A stretch of 64,000 bases of DNA from an alpha proteobacterium HIMB59 (GTDB lineage Bacteria > Pseudomonadota > Alphaproteobacteria > HIMB59): the NCBI GenBank assembly GCA_000299115.1, contig CP003801.1, positions 992,001 through 1,056,000 on the forward strand, given 5' to 3'. Shown here one piece after another: positions 28,152 through 40,843 of this stretch. A program made the position numbers and the translations under genes. Under the pieces are notes generated by a model. It worked only from the letters and a program-made list of their open reading frames with translations, made no database searches and was not told where the DNA came from. Numbering within the stretch: position 1 is the first letter of the stretch; each line of letters opens with the position of its first letter.

Positions 28152-28867
28152 CAAATAAGATTATTTATATTTGTGAATTTATACATATCATTAAAGACGC
28201 ATATTTCTGGTTGAGATAGATATATTAATGGAATTTCATTTTTAAATTTTTGATTCATTTTTTTTTCTAAATCTACCAATCTAGTTACTTCTTCTAATGT
28301 TAATGGCTCTAATAAATAGGCCAATGTAATATGAAAAGTATATCTTAAGTGATTTTCAAATTTTATACCTAATAAGCTACTTAAATCATCACGACAACTT
28401 CTCATAGTTTCCTCATCTTTTGCAGAGTAGGGAGTTAATAAAGTACTAAAACCTCCAAAGAATTTATTAAGCTTTACTGTTAAAGGATTGGGAAATTGAT
28501 AGTTTTTTAAACGATCAGATAAAATATTTGCAACTTCTAAATAATTTTCAGTCTCTTGTATATTTTTTGGCCAAAAAGAAGTTTTAAATGTACTAACATT
28601 ACAACAATCAAATAAAGTCATATGAAAACTTGATTGAGGTAAAAAAGTATATTTTTTCTTAGGAGCTATCTCTTTAAAATTTTCCTGTACTTCGGATAAT
28701 AAACTTGAAACTAAAGAGCTTTGTTGAATTGGGCAAATGATGGTGCATCCAGGCCAATGTAATGGATTACCATCATTATCAAATTTTCCTTCACCTTTTG
28801 TTACAGGATAATCATGAAGTTTATTTAATAAATAGCTCTCTTCATGATGGATGATATTGCTATCCAA
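28151..28867 (-). CDS. DUF1868-type 2H phosphoesterase (LigT-like)
   Basis: This 238-residue protein carries two HxT motifs of the 2H phosphoesterase fold, HMT in SSFHMTLFDCC and HIT in YTFHITLAYLL. The N-terminal GKFDNDGNPLHWPGCTIIC region resembles the DUF1868 group. Such proteins may cleave cyclic phosphodiesters in RNA or nucleotides, but no substrate is known for this group. The start seems to be TTG at 28867, as no early ATG exists. It sits nine bases after the small upstream gene and overlaps the aroE-like start, so the three minus-strand genes form one operon. Confidence 0.8.
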   Translation of the reverse strand: MDSNIIHHEESYLLNKLHDYPVTKGEGKFDNDGNPLHWPGCTIICPIQQSSLVSSLLSEVQENFKEIAPKKKYTFLPQSSFHMTLFDCCNVSTFKTSFWPKNIQETENYLEVANILSDRLKNYQFPNPLTVKLNKFFGGFSTLLTPYSAKDEETMRSCRDDLSSLLGIKFENHLRYTFHITLAYLLEPLTLEEVTRLVDLEKKMNQKFKNEIPLIYLSQPEICVFNDMYKFTNINNLI

Positions 28868-28876
28868 TATAAGTAA

Positions 28877-29157: not shown

Positions 29158-30594
29158 ATGAACAATCAAAATAATCAAAAATTCTATATTAATGGTCAAT
29201 GGGTAAACCCTCAATCTACTCAGTTATTGGATGTTATTAACCCCGCCAATGAGGAAATTATAACCCAAATAGCTATTGGTAATGAAGAAGACTTAAATGA
29301 TGCTGTAAAAGCTGCCAAAAACTCTTTTGAAACATGGTCACTTTCTAGTGTTGAGGAGAGATTAACATTGTTAAACAAACTGAAGGAAATTTATCAAAGA
29401 AGATTTGATGAAATGACTTTTGCAATAACAACGGAGATGGGTTGTCCAAAAGATTTTTCTTCAGATGTACAAACGCAATCTGGTCTTGATCATTTAAATG
29501 ATTTTATAGAACAATTAAAAAATTTTGATTTTGAAAATAAGTTTAATGAAAAATCTAATAATTATATTGCTCATGAACCAATTGGTGTTTGTGGTCTGAT
29601 TACTCCATGGAATTGGCCTATCAATCAAATAGCACTCAAAGTCATTCCTGCTTTAGCAACAGGTTGTACAATGGTTTTAAAGCCATCAGAGATAGCACCT
29701 TTATCTGGAATTTTATTTACTGAGATGATGGATGAGGCTGGTTTTCCAGCAGGTGTTTTCAATCTTGTCAATGGAGACGGAGCAGGCGTTGGAACTTTTA
29801 TGTCTGGACATCCTGATATCGATTTAGTTTCATTTACCGGTTCTACTCGAGCTGGAAGATTAATTTTACAAAATGCTTCTCACACTATTAAACGAGTTTG
29901 TCTTGAATTAGGGGGTAAAGGTGGAAATATCGTATTTGCTGATGCTCCTTCAAATGCAGTTCGAGATGGAATACGCAACGTCATGAGTAATTCTGGACAA
30001 TCTTGTGATGCTCCAACACGTATGCTTGTGGAAAGATCGATTTATGATCGTTCTGTTGAAGAAGCAGTAGATGAAGTTTCTAAAATGAAAGTGGACTCTC
30101 CTGAAAAAAATGGCGATCATATTGGTCCTGTCGTCTCCAAAGTTCAGTATGATAAAATCATCAATTTAATTGAATTAGGAAAAAAAGAAGGTGCTAATCT
30201 TGCTTGTGGTGGGTCCGAACGACCACAAACTTTAAGCAAAGGTTATTACATTCAACCTACCATCTTTACAAATGTTACCAATGATATGGAAATTGCCAAA
30301 TCAGAAATTTTTGGACCAGTCCTATCTATTATTCCTTTTGATAGTGAAGAAGAGGCAATCAAAATTGTCAATGATACTGAATATGGTCTTGGTAATTACA
30401 TCCAAACATCTGATATGGAAAAAGCTCGAAGAGTAGCCAAAAGACTTCGTTCTGGTGTTGTCTATATTAATGGTCACTCTATGGACTCTGGGACACCATT
30501 TGGAGGTTACAGACAATCGGGTAATGGTAGAGAAGGTGGCAAATGGGGCCTAGATGAATACTTGGAAGTAAAAACGATTACCGGTTGGGTTTAA
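29158..30594 (+). CDS. Aldehyde dehydrogenase family protein
   Basis: This 478-residue NAD(P)-dependent dehydrogenase oxidises an aldehyde to a carboxylate. The cofactor and catalytic motifs are present: ITPWNWPINQ, the Lys in MVLKPSE, FTGSTRAG, the general-base Glu in LELGGKGGN, and the catalytic Cys in NSGQSCDAPTR. Its C-terminal GGYRQSGNGREGG is typical. The substrate cannot be named; the betaine-aldehyde-like subgroup is broad. It is followed 27 bases later by the aroQ-like gene, and could belong with it to the proposed catabolic module. Confidence 0.92.
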   Translation: MNNQNNQKFYINGQWVNPQSTQLLDVINPANEEIITQIAIGNEEDLNDAVKAAKNSFETWSLSSVEERLTLLNKLKEIYQRRFDEMTFAITTEMGCPKDFSSDVQTQSGLDHLNDFIEQLKNFDFENKFNEKSNNYIAHEPIGVCGLITPWNWPINQIALKVIPALATGCTMVLKPSEIAPLSGILFTEMMDEAGFPAGVFNLVNGDGAGVGTFMSGHPDIDLVSFTGSTRAGRLILQNASHTIKRVCLELGGKGGNIVFADAPSNAVRDGIRNVMSNSGQSCDAPTRMLVERSIYDRSVEEAVDEVSKMKVDSPEKNGDHIGPVVSKVQYDKIINLIELGKKEGANLACGGSERPQTLSKGYYIQPTIFTNVTNDMEIAKSEIFGPVLSIIPFDSEEEAIKIVNDTEYGLGNYIQTSDMEKARRVAKRLRSGVVYINGHSMDSGTPFGGYRQSGNGREGGKWGLDEYLEVKTITGWV

Positions 30595-35887: not shown

Positions 35888-37195
35888 ATGAAAAAGATTA
35901 TAAGTATTTTTGTAATTCTATTTTCCTTTGCCTTTACATCAAACAGTTATAGTAAAACCGAAATTCATTGGTGGTATGGTAACAGCGGATTTTTAGGTGA
36001 TGTGATTATTGAAATTGCAAACAGATTTAATGACTCTCAAGATGAGTATATGGTCATTCCAACAGGTAAGGGTAGTTATGAAGATAATATGGCTGCTACT
36101 ATCGCTGCTTTTAGAGCAGGTGACCAACCTCATTACTCTCAGGTTTATGATGCCGGTGCTGCGATCATGGTAGCACAAGTTAAAAACGGTGTTGTAATCG
36201 GTTTTGAAGAGATGGCAGAGAAGTATGGTATCGAAGTAGATGCTGATAACTACATTCCAGGTATCAAAAACTTCTACGCTGACTCTGATGGTAAGATGGT
36301 CGGTGTTCCGTTTAACAGTTCTACTTGTTTGATGTATGCAAATATGGATATCTTAGCGGAAGTAGGTATTGAGGAAGTGCCAAAAACTTACGAAGAGTTT
36401 GAAGCTATCGCTCAACAAATTGCTGATGCGGGATATATTCCACTTCTACAAAGTCATAGCCCATGGATTTGGACTGAGAACTTCTTCTCAAGACATAACC
36501 TATTAATGACTGATGGTAACAACGGTTATGATGCAGTTCCAACTAAAACACTTTTTGCTGATACTCCTGAGTTCGTAATGCACTGGGAAAAAGTTAAAGA
36601 GTGGTATGAAAAAGGTTGGTACGGCTACAAGGGTAGAGCATGGGGAGATAACCAAGCTCCTTTCACAAACGGCGAAGCTGCGTTCTGGTTTGGTTCAGCT
36701 GCATCTTTTGGCGGTATGAAAGGTATCCTTCCAAACTTTACTGTTAACCCGATTCCTTACTGGGATTCTGTAACTGGTGGTAAAGAATACCCAACATTTA
36801 TTGGTGGTGCTGCTAACTGGATCTTAAACGGTCATACAGAAGAGGAGTACAGAGGACTTGCTAAGTTTATTGAATTTATGGGTTCACCAGAGATGGATTT
36901 ATACTATCACAACATGACTGGTTATGCTGCTGTTACTAAAGGTGGTATCGAGTTAGCTGAGACTATTAACTTCTACAGAACATCTCCTTACCATAAAGCT
37001 GTTGGTGATCAATTAGGCTTAGAAGGGTCAACTATTCCAGGTGGATACAGAGCAGGAAACTGGCCTCAAATTCGTGAAGTAATTTACGAAAATGTAGAGC
37101 CAATGCTTAATGGTGACATTAGTGTTGAAAAAGCACTTGGTAATATGGATAAGGGAGCTGAGAAGCTATTAGCGCAGTTCGCTAAAACCTTATAA
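35888..37195 (+). CDS. ugpB: Glycerol-3-phosphate ABC transporter binding protein UgpB
   Basis: This 435-residue periplasmic protein has a signal peptide of about 22 residues. It shares with E. coli UgpB, as I recall it, the stretches KGSYEDNMAATIAAFRAG, VPFNSSTCLMYANMD, TFIGGAANW and GNWPQIREVI near the C-terminus. These make UgpB more likely than a general sugar binder. It captures sn-glycerol-3-phosphate or glycerophosphodiesters, giving phosphorus and carbon. AAGGAGG (35876-35882) gives a strong ribosome site. Codons favour C-ending AAC, TTC and TAC more than in neighbours, consistent with high expression. No Pho box was recognised in the 112-base leader. Confidence 0.92.
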   Translation: MKKIISIFVILFSFAFTSNSYSKTEIHWWYGNSGFLGDVIIEIANRFNDSQDEYMVIPTGKGSYEDNMAATIAAFRAGDQPHYSQVYDAGAAIMVAQVKNGVVIGFEEMAEKYGIEVDADNYIPGIKNFYADSDGKMVGVPFNSSTCLMYANMDILAEVGIEEVPKTYEEFEAIAQQIADAGYIPLLQSHSPWIWTENFFSRHNLLMTDGNNGYDAVPTKTLFADTPEFVMHWEKVKEWYEKGWYGYKGRAWGDNQAPFTNGEAAFWFGSAASFGGMKGILPNFTVNPIPYWDSVTGGKEYPTFIGGAANWILNGHTEEEYRGLAKFIEFMGSPEMDLYYHNMTGYAAVTKGGIELAETINFYRTSPYHKAVGDQLGLEGSTIPGGYRAGNWPQIREVIYENVEPMLNGDISVEKALGNMDKGAEKLLAQFAKTL

Positions 37196-37243: not shown

Positions 37244-38122
37244 ATGAAAAAAGTCCAGTTTAAGTCTAGTTATTCTCAATATGTTTTTTTAGCTCCTCAG
37301 CTATTAATTCTTTTAATTTTTCTTTATTGGCCCATTATTCAAACTTTTCGCGATGCATTTACAATTCAAGATGCATTTGGATTTGGTTCTTATTTTGCAG
37401 GTTTTGAAAATTTTAAATTTATCTTCTCTGACCCTTCATATTTTACGGCCTTTAAATTTACTTTAATTTACAGTTTTGTTATTACACTTATAACTGGCTC
37501 AATTGGATTATTGTTAGCTGTTCAAGCGAATAGCGTTCTTCATGGAAAGAATGCTTATAAAACTCTCTTAATATGGCCTTATGCTATAGCTCCAGCTGTC
37601 GTGGGTGTGATGGCTAATTATTTTTTTAGTGAAAGATTTGGTCTTTTATATCACTTATTTCATGAGCTATGGGGTTTCAATTGGTATGAAAATATTTTTG
37701 ATGCCTACATTTATGTGATTATTGCCGGTTCGTGGAAGCAGATTAGTGCTAACTTTATTTTCTTCTTAGCTGGTCTTCAAGCTATTCAAAAAACAGTTAT
37801 CGAAGCTTCAATTATTGACTGTAAAAGTAATATAAGAAGATTTTGGACGATTACCTTTCCCTTATTAATGCCAACTACGTTCTTCCTAATCATTATCAAT
37901 ATCACTTATGCTTTTTTTGATACTTTTGGAATTATTGATACTACCACAATTGGTGCTCCAGGAAGTGAAACCAAAACGCTCGTCTACAAAGCTTATATTG
38001 ATGGCTTTAAAGGTTTAGATTTAGGTAGTGCTGGTGCTCAATCAATTATGATGATGCTAATCGTCTTAGTTATTACTATTTTCCAATTTAGATATATTGA
38101 AGGAAAAATTCATTATAACTAA
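37244..38122 (+). CDS. ugpA: Glycerol-3-phosphate ABC transporter permease UgpA
   Basis: This 292-residue permease has six membrane segments. The start SSYSQYVFLAPQLLILLIFLYWP and the later ITYAFFDTFGIIDTTT and GFKGLDLGSAGAQS correspond closely to UgpA. The EAA loop that docks the ATPase is EASIIDCKSNIRRFWTITFP, with the usual Ala-Gly replaced by Cys-Lys-Ser. QFRYIEGKIHYN at the end also matches the family. It forms the channel with a UgpE subunit. There is essentially no Shine-Dalgarno, directly after the hairpin. The next gene's ATG comes one base after its stop. Confidence 0.93.
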   Translation: MKKVQFKSSYSQYVFLAPQLLILLIFLYWPIIQTFRDAFTIQDAFGFGSYFAGFENFKFIFSDPSYFTAFKFTLIYSFVITLITGSIGLLLAVQANSVLHGKNAYKTLLIWPYAIAPAVVGVMANYFFSERFGLLYHLFHELWGFNWYENIFDAYIYVIIAGSWKQISANFIFFLAGLQAIQKTVIEASIIDCKSNIRRFWTITFPLLMPTTFFLIIINITYAFFDTFGIIDTTTIGAPGSETKTLVYKAYIDGFKGLDLGSAGAQSIMMMLIVLVITIFQFRYIEGKIHYN

Positions 38123-38123
38123 A

Positions 38124-38942
38124 ATGAATAGACTTACTTCAAAATTAAATCATTTAATTCTTTTAACAGGTCTATTACTAATGATTATTCCTGTATGGGT
38201 TATTTTTGCTAGCTCAACTCATACCAGTCTTTTTATCAATACTAACGGATTGCAATTTATACTTGGTGATAGTTTTATTGAAAATTACTCAAAAGTTTTA
38301 TTTAAGAAATCAGGTTTTTTTCAAGAAATTACTGCTATTAAAATGTTTTTAAATAGTTTCATTATGGCTACTGGTATAGCCACTTTGTCTGTAGCTACCT
38401 CATTAATGGCAGCTTACGGATTAGTGTATTTTCGAATTAAATATGCTTCGTTATTTTTTTGGCTAATTTTTATTACCTTACTTGTGCCGTTAGAGTTAAG
38501 AATTATGCCAACATATGAAGTTATGTCTAAATTAAACCTAATCAATTCTTATATGGGTCTTATTCTTCCAATCTCTGCATCAGCAATAGCTACTTTTTTC
38601 TTTCGACAATTTTATAAATCTGTTCCTGATGAATTGTTGGAGGCGGCTAAACTAGATGGTGCTAATAGTTGGAAATTCTTTATCGATTTCTTAGTTCCTT
38701 TATCTAAGACAATGATTGCGGCAGTATTTATTTTCATGTTTGTCTTTGGATATAATCAATATTTATGGCCCCTTATCATGACTACTACTGAACAGTATTG
38801 GACTGTCGTTATGGGTTTAAAAACTATGTATGGTTCTATTTCTCAAAGATTTGCGTTTGTAATTATGTCAATGATACCCCCGGTCTTAATCATCATCTTT
38901 TTACAAAGATGGTTTATTCAAGGAATTTTTCAAAATAAATGA
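38124..38942 (+). CDS. ugpE: UgpE-type permease, first of two tandem copies
   Basis: This 272-residue permease is of the MalG/UgpE type with six membrane segments. It has FFWLIFITLLVPLELRIMPTYE, the EAA loop DELLEAAKLDGANSWKFF and NQYLWPLIMTTTEQYW. The next gene is clearly a paralogue aligned over its whole length. This copy lacks the short TYEGVTAPRVGE-like insertion that copy two has near its C-terminus. ATG 38124 is preferred to an upstream TTG (38097) inside ugpA, because it aligns with the paralogue's start. It overlaps copy two by four bases (ATGA). Confidence 0.9.
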   Translation: MNRLTSKLNHLILLTGLLLMIIPVWVIFASSTHTSLFINTNGLQFILGDSFIENYSKVLFKKSGFFQEITAIKMFLNSFIMATGIATLSVATSLMAAYGLVYFRIKYASLFFWLIFITLLVPLELRIMPTYEVMSKLNLINSYMGLILPISASAIATFFFRQFYKSVPDELLEAAKLDGANSWKFFIDFLVPLSKTMIAAVFIFMFVFGYNQYLWPLIMTTTEQYWTVVMGLKTMYGSISQRFAFVIMSMIPPVLIIIFLQRWFIQGIFQNK

Positions 38943-39790
38943 AATTTAAACCAGTACAAATTTTATCTCACATTATTCTAATATTAGGTGTTCTATTGAT
39001 GGTATTGCCAATTTGGTTTTCTTTTGCAACCTCAACTCATGACAATATTTCAATTTTAAAAGAAGGAATGAAGTTTTTCTTAGGTGAAAATTTTGAAATT
39101 AATTATAACGAAGTTCTTAACGAAAAGGGTGGTTGGTCTGAAGAAGTCACAGCAACCAATATGTTTATCAATAGTTTTATTATGGCCTTAGGCATAGCTA
39201 CTTTAAAAGTAGTCATATCTGCTATGTCAGCATACGCTTTGGTTTATTTTAGATTTAAATTAGCAGTTCCAATTTTTTGGTTAATTTTTATTACGTTACT
39301 TGTGCCTTTAGAGGTGAGGATTTTTCCGAGCTATAAAATTGTTTCAGATTTGGGTCTTACTAACACATATACAGGTTTGATTTTACCTCTGGTCGCTTCT
39401 GCAACAGCAACTTTCTTTTTTAGACAATTTTATAAAACCATACCAGATGAGTTATTAGAGTCAGCTAAATTAGACGGTGCTAATAGTTGGAGATTTTTTG
39501 TTGATTTCCTATTACCACTCTCAAAAACTATGTTAGCTGCGATGTTTATCTTTATGTTTGTGTATGGTTATAGTCAGTATTTATGGCCTTTAATCATGAC
39601 AACAGATGAGAAATATTGGACTGTAGTCATGGGTATGAAAATTATATTTACTGAAACTTATGAGGGTGTAACTGCACCTAGGGTGGGTGAGCGATTTGCT
39701 TATATTATATTATCCATGTTGCCACCTGTATTAGTCGTTGTTGTATTGCAACGATGGTTTATTAAAGGATTAATCCAAACGGAGAAATAG
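38939..39790 (+). CDS. ugpE: UgpE permease, second tandem copy
   Basis: This 283-residue permease resembles E. coli UgpE most closely of the two copies: FWLIFITLLVPLEVRIFPSYK, LPLVASATATFFFRQFYKT, DELLESAKLDGANSWRFF and YSQYLWPLIMTTDEKYW. The C-terminal ends LQRWFIKGLIQTEK, as in UgpE. Compared with copy one it has a longer loop (ETYEGVTAPRVGERF) before the last helix. Both copies keep intact EAA loops, so both should dock the UgpC ATPase. It overlaps the first copy by four bases and ends three bases before ugpC. Confidence 0.92.
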   Translation: MKFKPVQILSHIILILGVLLMVLPIWFSFATSTHDNISILKEGMKFFLGENFEINYNEVLNEKGGWSEEVTATNMFINSFIMALGIATLKVVISAMSAYALVYFRFKLAVPIFWLIFITLLVPLEVRIFPSYKIVSDLGLTNTYTGLILPLVASATATFFFRQFYKTIPDELLESAKLDGANSWRFFVDFLLPLSKTMLAAMFIFMFVYGYSQYLWPLIMTTDEKYWTVVMGMKIIFTETYEGVTAPRVGERFAYIILSMLPPVLVVVVLQRWFIKGLIQTEK

Positions 39791-39793
39791 GAA

Positions 39794-40843
39794 ATGAGCT
39801 TTTTAGAATTACAAAATATTACTAAAATATATCCAAATGGAACCAAGGCAGTAAACGAAACATCTTTAAATATTGAAAAAGGTGAGTTTGTTGTGTTCGT
39901 AGGCCCTAGTGGATGTGGAAAATCTACCTTATTGAGGATGATAGCAGGTCTTGAAGATATCACTGCTGGTGAAATTGTTCTTGATGAAAATACAATCAAT
40001 AATATCGATCCTTCTGAAAGAGACGTGGCGATGGTTTTCCAAAACTATGCTCTTTACCCTCATATGACGGTTTACAATAATATGGCTTATGGTCTTAAAA
40101 ATAGAGGTATTTCAAAACAAGAAATTGAAGATAAGGTTAATGAAGCGGCAAAACTTCTTGAAATAGATCAATATCTTTCACGAAAACCAAGTATGTTATC
40201 TGGTGGTCAAAGGCAGCGTGTTGCAATGGGCCGAGCGATAGTAAGAAACCCTAAAATCTTTCTTTTTGACGAACCTTTATCAAATCTTGATGCAAAATTA
40301 AGAAATCAAATGCGTCTTGAGATCAAAAAACTACAACGTCAGATGGGCGTTACAAGTATTTTTGTTACTCACGATCAAACAGAAGCGATGACTCTAGGGG
40401 ACAGAATTGTGGTTATTAATAATGGTATTGTGGAGCAAGTAGGTACGCCTAAAGATATTTATTCAAAACCAAATACAAAATTCGTAGCAGAATTTATTGG
40501 TTCACCCCAAATGAATATATTTAATTGTAAAATTGATAATGGTATTGCTAAAATTGATAATAACTCCATCAATTTAGATAAATCTATAAATATTGATGAT
40601 GCAAGTATAGGAATACGACCTGATGACATACAAATTTCAGATACTGGTTCTATTGCTTGTAAAGCCAACTTAGTTGAATATTTAGGCTCTGATATGATTA
40701 TTTATTCTAGTATAGGTGATCAAGAATTTAGTTGTAAATTATCTTCTAAGATTGATTTAAAAGCAGGTGATGAATTTAAATTTGATATTCAATCCTCTTT
40801 AGTTCATTTATTCGATAATTCTTCAGGAAAAAGAATAGATTAA
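39794..40843 (+). CDS. ugpC: Glycerol-3-phosphate ABC transporter ATP-binding protein UgpC
   Basis: This 349-residue ATPase of the MalK/UgpC type powers the transporter. Walker A is GPSGCGKST (near residue 36), the signature LSGGQRQRVAMGRA, Walker B IFLFDEP, with DQTEAMTLGDRI after it. The C-terminal OB/TOBE-like part (from about residue 240, IGSPQMNIF, then IGIRPDDIQ) is a regulatory domain shared by the family. Position after the ugp permeases supports the name. It ends seven bases before the convergent nadE, without overlap. Confidence 0.92.
   Translation: MSFLELQNITKIYPNGTKAVNETSLNIEKGEFVVFVGPSGCGKSTLLRMIAGLEDITAGEIVLDENTINNIDPSERDVAMVFQNYALYPHMTVYNNMAYGLKNRGISKQEIEDKVNEAAKLLEIDQYLSRKPSMLSGGQRQRVAMGRAIVRNPKIFLFDEPLSNLDAKLRNQMRLEIKKLQRQMGVTSIFVTHDQTEAMTLGDRIVVINNGIVEQVGTPKDIYSKPNTKFVAEFIGSPQMNIFNCKIDNGIAKIDNNSINLDKSINIDDASIGIRPDDIQISDTGSIACKANLVEYLGSDMIIYSSIGDQEFSCKLSSKIDLKAGDEFKFDIQSSLVHLFDNSSGKRID

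Follow-up and report, generated by a model that had tools for sequence, protein, structure and literature searches.

The closest described relative of the locus analysed here is the CUT1-type glycerol-3-phosphate (G3P) importer UgpBAEC, which combines one UgpA with one UgpE and is known from E. coli and, for the binding protein UgpB, from Phaeobacter MED193 (PMC12718374, partial text). The locus lies in a window of 64,000 nucleotides (the whole stretch of DNA that was analysed) from the alpha proteobacterium HIMB59, whose genome consists of a single contig (1,410,127 bases). Subunit families, the order B-A-E-C and the phosphate ligands of UgpB are alike in the two systems, whereas the window operon has two UgpE genes, Asp replaces Glu88 and His replaces Trp188 in its UgpB (Phaeobacter numbering), and its UgpB, UgpA and both UgpE proteins fall under the NCBIfam equivalog cutoffs. 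The CUT1 importers of known structure MalFGK2, SugABC and AlgM1M2 have one MalG-type subunit each, against two here; their MalG, SugB and AlgM2 chains are the top matches of the predicted models of the two UgpE copies. Three single-UgpE alphaproteobacterial operons (L139, L140 and L142) have the Asp/His pocket of UgpB and a long P3 loop in common with the window, and L139 and L140 also the DC(K/R) loop of UgpA, but each has one UgpE instead of two.

Layout of the operon

The operon runs ugpB-A-E1-E2-C, with all genes on the + strand, between a TAXI-TRAP pair upstream and an NadE-like gene downstream on the opposite strand.

35888..37195, + strand: ugpB-like substrate-binding protein, 435 aa; NCBIfam NF008211 (UgpB) 260 bits, below the cutoff of 411; PDB 9lff, E 3e-70
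37244..38122, + strand: ugpA, MalF-type permease; NF007852 267 bits, below the cutoff of 335
38124..38942, + strand: ugpE1 (E1), 272 aa, the faster-diverging UgpE copy; ATG at 38124, TGA at 38942
38939..39790, + strand: ugpE2 (E2), 283 aa, the more conservative UgpE copy; ATG at 38939, TAG at 39790
39794..40843, + strand: ugpC, ATPase; NF008653 511 bits, above the cutoff

The preliminary description of the locus had reported two full-length MalG/UgpE-type permeases in tandem, served by one UgpB, one UgpA and one ATPase, and is borne out in both respects, with exact coordinates. The coding regions of E1 and E2 overlap by ATGA, as they do in 132/132 loci with both genes readable, a count that is not deduplicated (all loci together hold 70 distinct protein pairs). 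The two proteins are identical at 168 of 274 positions (61%; BLASTP E 2e-122), and family match, alignment and fold identify each as a MalG/UgpE-type permease with an EAA loop. For both, the best NCBIfam match is UgpE (NF008210; 248 bits for E1, 290 bits for E2), short of its equivalog cutoff of 297 bits; by these scores, the window system is classed as a divergent Ugp-type system, filed outside the UgpE equivalog.

The EAA loop of UgpA reads EASIIDCKSN (window 37793–37860), with Cys-Lys replacing the usual Gly-Ala. Degeneration of this loop was considered as the cause of the second UgpE and rejected, because Cys-Lys or Cys-Arg (DCK/DCR) is also found in the single-UgpE relatives L113, L115, L139 and L140.

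Distribution, age and constraint of the two copies

Of 37 genomes from the window's genus, 28 have the genes, 26 of them with both copies and two (G001 and G028) with E2 alone, on contigs that break off where E1 would lie or shortly before it; in G008, E1 and E2 lie on two contigs. The operon is missing from the other 9 genomes, three of them 93–94% complete, so that as a whole it is accessory in the genus. Among 23 genomes from other families of the window's order, the pair occurs only in G041, and eight genomes have one match at 30–32% identity. In the order of G445, represented by a sample of 297 genomes, 60 match: 14 have a single UgpE at 45–50% identity and 46 are tandem-type carriers, all 46 of which keep both copies (on two contigs in G693). 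One of the 14, G731 (L181), has the order ugpB-A-E-C followed by a gene that, on reading, resembles a glycerophosphodiester phosphodiesterase (GDPD). Carriers thus lack one of the copies only at contig ends, and where a copy is shortened or missing, the locus itself stops at the gene or close to it.

A class sample of 385 genomes gave 77 matches at E<=1e-60, with the tandem in three genomes of the window's genus. The other 74 showed no adjacent second match, in a search that scored six candidates per genome and that a very diverged neighbour could escape; two of them have a second match far off or on another contig. The single-UgpE loci checked by gene order contained no second UgpE of >40% identity. 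The earlier statement that ordinary Ugp systems have one UgpE therefore holds for the relatives examined. Literature searches returned no paper on a tandem ugpE: the partial text of PMC3840354 mentions 'ugpE/ugpA/ugpE' transcripts only, and a text search of PMC10734472 and PMC10308909 did not find 'ugp'.

A tree of 48 UgpE rows, comprising 32 tandem copies and 16 single UgpEs, was computed with IQ-TREE under C20 PMSF. The tandem copies form one clade against the single UgpEs (support 100/100), within which E1 (15 rows, 100/100) and E2 (15 rows, 100/100) are separate clades; the stems measure 0.45 changes per column for E1 and 0.16 for E2, in a tree for which the program warned of long branches converging where the outgroup attaches. 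The two copies of G041 fall one to each side, one with E1 (100/97) and the other with E2 (99/85), and are 81% identical to each other as against 58–65% in the other 15 pairs; G041 has either kept a less diverged E1 or undergone recombination between the copies. The ugpE pair is the product of a single old duplication, not of recent redundancy, across the window's order and the Pelagibacteraceae-labelled genomes.

The tandem operon has also passed between orders. Between the window genome and the Pelagibacteraceae-labelled G440 and G448, RpoB identity is 55%, and with the order-mate G041 it is 61%, whereas UgpB, UgpA and E2 of the window are 90%, 88% and 88% identical to those of G440, and 71%, 79% and 81% to those of G041. 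Three operon proteins are thus much closer to G440 than RpoB is, and therefore the operon, with both copies, crossed between distant lineages; either direction is possible. Across the Pelagibacteraceae-labelled loci, identity to the window is 86–88% for E2 and 74–76% for E1. UgpC is 64% identical between window-type and Pelagibacteraceae-type loci; its replacement from another source was rejected, as the UgpCs of tandem operons are monophyletic (100/98).

Constraint was estimated as dN/dS (NG86) in pairwise comparisons among 72 distinct loci, the pairs not being independent of one another; 1584 pairs were computed, 1020 of them falling in bins of mean dS 0.1–0.4 (184 pairs), 0.4–0.8 (57) and 0.8–1.5 (779). 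Over the three rising bins, dN/dS is 0.065, 0.059 and 0.092 for E1; 0.017, 0.041 and 0.040 for E2; 0.014, 0.032 and 0.026 for UgpA; 0.021, 0.021 and 0.033 for UgpB, in which dS is low; and 0.067, 0.051 and 0.083 for UgpC. Both E1 and E2 are under purifying selection, with E1 about as constrained as the ATPase gene and giving no sign of decay in this comparison. E1 evolves faster than E2 and UgpA, which fits a weaker role of E1 as well. UgpA evolves most slowly of all the subunits, or nearly so, and a UgpA shared by both copies is favoured for this reason, in keeping with that part of the earlier proposal of alternative UgpA–E1 and UgpA–E2 channels.

A phylogeny of both copies had been named in the preliminary description as a check, with relaxed selection on one copy, or its absence from close relatives, as the signs of recent redundancy. 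E1 and E2 prove to be separate clades from one old duplication, and neither sign was found. That both copies have the same family as best match would suit a redundant or dosage duplicate retained by chance, but this reading is improbable in view of the 61% identity, clade-wide fixed differences and an indel, and of the retention of both copies in every readable carrier, in small genomes.

The UgpB pocket and the likely cargo

Pocket sites of UgpB were counted by hand along the PDB-match alignment in Phaeobacter numbering, with residue roles from the partial text of PMC12718374. The phosphate ligands Tyr64, Ser143, Ser266 and Tyr342 are kept in 37/37 distinct tandem-operon UgpBs, as are Gly303, Arg393 and Trp191. 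On the glycerol side, Glu88 and the Trp188 half of the Trp188/Trp191 clamp are replaced by Asp88 and His188 in 37/37. Among eight UgpBs from single-UgpE operons, five have Glu/Trp and three Asp/His, so that the change in the pocket is older than the duplication. In Mycobacterium tuberculosis UgpB, which binds glycerophosphocholine (GPC), the site equivalent to Trp188 is Leu, against His in the window, and we know of no tandem UgpE in that species. Its Asp102, listed among the glycerol-side residues in the accessible part of PMC12718374, occupies the same position as the Asp of the window protein, and the same text has the Trp pair arising in a change from GPC binding to G3P binding.

Gene neighbourhoods were counted, not deduplicated, in 43 Pelagibacteraceae-type loci with a minimum length of 9 kb. 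All 43 have a GDPD gene, which exactly abuts ugpC in 36; a GlpD homologue occurs in 25 and an MIP channel in 24. No GDPD gene adjoins the operon in any of 24 window-type loci; in the window genome, one is encoded away from the operon. From the two altered glycerol-side residues of UgpB and the GDPD gene that follows ugpC in the Pelagibacteraceae-type loci, a glycerophosphodiester appears likelier as cargo than G3P. A choline-related neighbourhood was weak, with OpuAC in 13/43 loci and a butyrobetaine-dioxygenase-like gene in 15/43.

Two further features of these neighbourhoods were recorded. A DUF1868 (2H-phosphodiesterase) gene is present in 42/43 Pelagibacteraceae-type loci (GDPD abutting ugpC, for example, at L061:7902-8828, L089 and L109), and the window contains homologues both of this gene, at 28163–28876, and of a neighbouring aldehyde dehydrogenase, at 29179–30588. 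In G041, a further SBP_bac_8/SBP_bac_1 binding protein (L138:10435-11751) is encoded just downstream of the tandem operon, after a G3P-dehydrogenase-like gene.

Specificity in type I importers usually comes from the binding protein, and a pair of permeases served by a single UgpB could therefore carry the same cargo. The suggestion in the preliminary description that the copies handle different substrates, such as G3P and glycerophosphodiesters, is not upheld: there is one UgpB, with a pocket that is invariant in 37/37 and glycerophosphodiester-like.

Reciprocal changes in E1 and E2

The copies were compared column by column in 16 E1, 16 E2 and 16 outgroup (single-UgpE) rows, with topology borders read from predicted models. 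The sites discussed are the following.

38754..38756, + strand: E1 Asn211 in TM5, the same residue as in single UgpEs
38835..38840, + strand: site of P3-loop shortening in E1, 8–9 residues, in 16/16 E1 rows
39572..39574, + strand: E2 Ser212 in TM5; Asn in 16/16 E1 and 16/16 single-UgpE rows
39653..39682, + strand: P3-loop segment of E2, mostly missing in E1

At ten columns the E1 set and the E2 set are each fixed, but for a different state. The clades share no residue at 12/28 columns of the P3 loop, 2/7 of the C-tail and 0/29 of the EAA/coupling region. V126L and T156I (E2 numbering) are specific to E1, the outgroup having the other state in 16/16 rows, and the E1 C-tail is altered; N212S is specific to E2. 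The P3 stretch measures 11–12 residues in E1, 20 in E2, 19–20 in near outgroups and 17 in far ones; E2 thus stays long, as in single UgpEs, and the loss in E1 includes an E-G...P segment whose residues are kept in the nearest single UgpEs (E 7/8, G 8/8, P 8/8). E1 and E2 have specialised reciprocally, with the EAA/coupling region unsplit. The earlier placing of divergence in the periplasmic and C-terminal loops is right for this clade-level split but not for the window pair alone, in which TM1 (15/27) and TM6 (12/28) also differ greatly.

The AlphaFold model of E1 (pLDDT 80.7) best matches MalG 2r6g_G (Z 22.5, rmsd 3.0 over 261) and has its P3 helix at 228–234 and its last helix from 239; that of E2 (pLDDT 77.0) best matches MalG 3puv_G (Z 21.2, rmsd 3.6 over 265), with the P3 helix at 229–242 and the last helix from 249. 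The P3 loop of MalG enters the cleft of the binding protein, and its C-tail touches the ATPase. As the EAA/coupling region has no clade split, both copies should dock on the ATPase.

The ugpE of a Ugp-type (CUT1) importer underwent one ancient duplication, in the ancestry of the tandem operons now present in the window's order and in Pelagibacteraceae-labelled genomes. We infer that UgpA and the UgpC dimer would pair with either E1 or E2, so that a single UgpB would serve two alternative importers, A-E1-C2 and A-E2-C2. The short P3 loop and altered C-tail of E1 may give it a different contact with UgpB and UgpC, and so different docking or gating; the E1 channel could differ, for example, in affinity or rate, or could prefer another of the ligands bound by a promiscuous UgpB. 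The probable cargo is a phosphate ester of the glycerophosphodiester type, which a GDPD would hydrolyse intracellularly. Two such complexes fit with a coupling region that is conserved, with strong constraint on UgpA, with the presence of only one UgpB and with the reciprocal P3 and TM5 changes, and we give this reading a probability of about 0.5.

The same changes bear on three other readings. E1 might be a modulatory or decoy subunit: the two copies would compete for UgpA and UgpC, and E1 would tune uptake by forming a slow or UgpB-insensitive complex. Loss of the P3 segment and the changed C-tail beside an unchanged EAA/coupling region, together with the accelerated E1 stem, speak for it, but purifying selection as strong as on the ATPase gene and an intact TM core and coupling loop make it rather unlikely. 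An E1–E2 heterodimer, with or without UgpA, in which both copies are needed in one complex, would agree with their constant co-inheritance and translational overlap and with the loss from each of residues kept by single UgpEs. It is nonetheless unlikely, given the slow evolution of UgpA and the two transmembrane subunits found in each complex of known type I importers. That E1 works with a different binding protein encoded elsewhere would accord with its changes in the P3 loop, where MalG-type subunits meet the binding protein, but is very improbable: a screen limited to PF13416 found no orphan binding protein for E1, 10 of the 11 matches in the genome lying near permease genes and the eleventh being an N-terminally extended, regulator-like fusion. 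In this fusion (L177:3307-4992; G000:C1:619306-620991, minus strand), which lacks neighbouring CUT1 permeases, an extension that reads like a DNA-binding domain precedes the solute-binding domain; it is possibly a sensor derived from a binding protein.

Among the permease clusters of the same genome, one other has three genes in succession; it is CUT1-like (G000:C1:222109-224675; L178:3109-5676) and consists of one MalF-like and two tandem MalG-like genes (G000:223005-223871 and 223878-224675), which are 46% identical. This pair occurs in 13/13 genus genomes that hold its first gene at 95–100% identity; in its second copy the EAA loop reads ENA. It is only distantly related to UgpE (25–28% identity to E2), and the extra MalG-type subunit therefore appears, from these comparisons, to have arisen at least twice. 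As a tentative generalization, these streamlined marine bacteria might possess CUT1 importers of modular build, where a single MalF-type subunit, together with one binding protein and one ATPase, works with either of two specialised MalG-type subunits; the Ugp-type pair and G000:223005-224675 would be separate cases of this design.

Two 61%-identical versions of a channel subunit were unexpected in a 1.4 Mb genome. Their joint retention after long divergence suggests that two alternative channels may be supplied by a single binding protein; if true, this would be an exception to one fixed transmembrane-subunit pair per importer, and the operon would offer a natural experiment on the roles of the P3 loop and TM5. 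The operon also bears on the uptake of lipid-derived organic phosphorus by abundant ocean bacteria.
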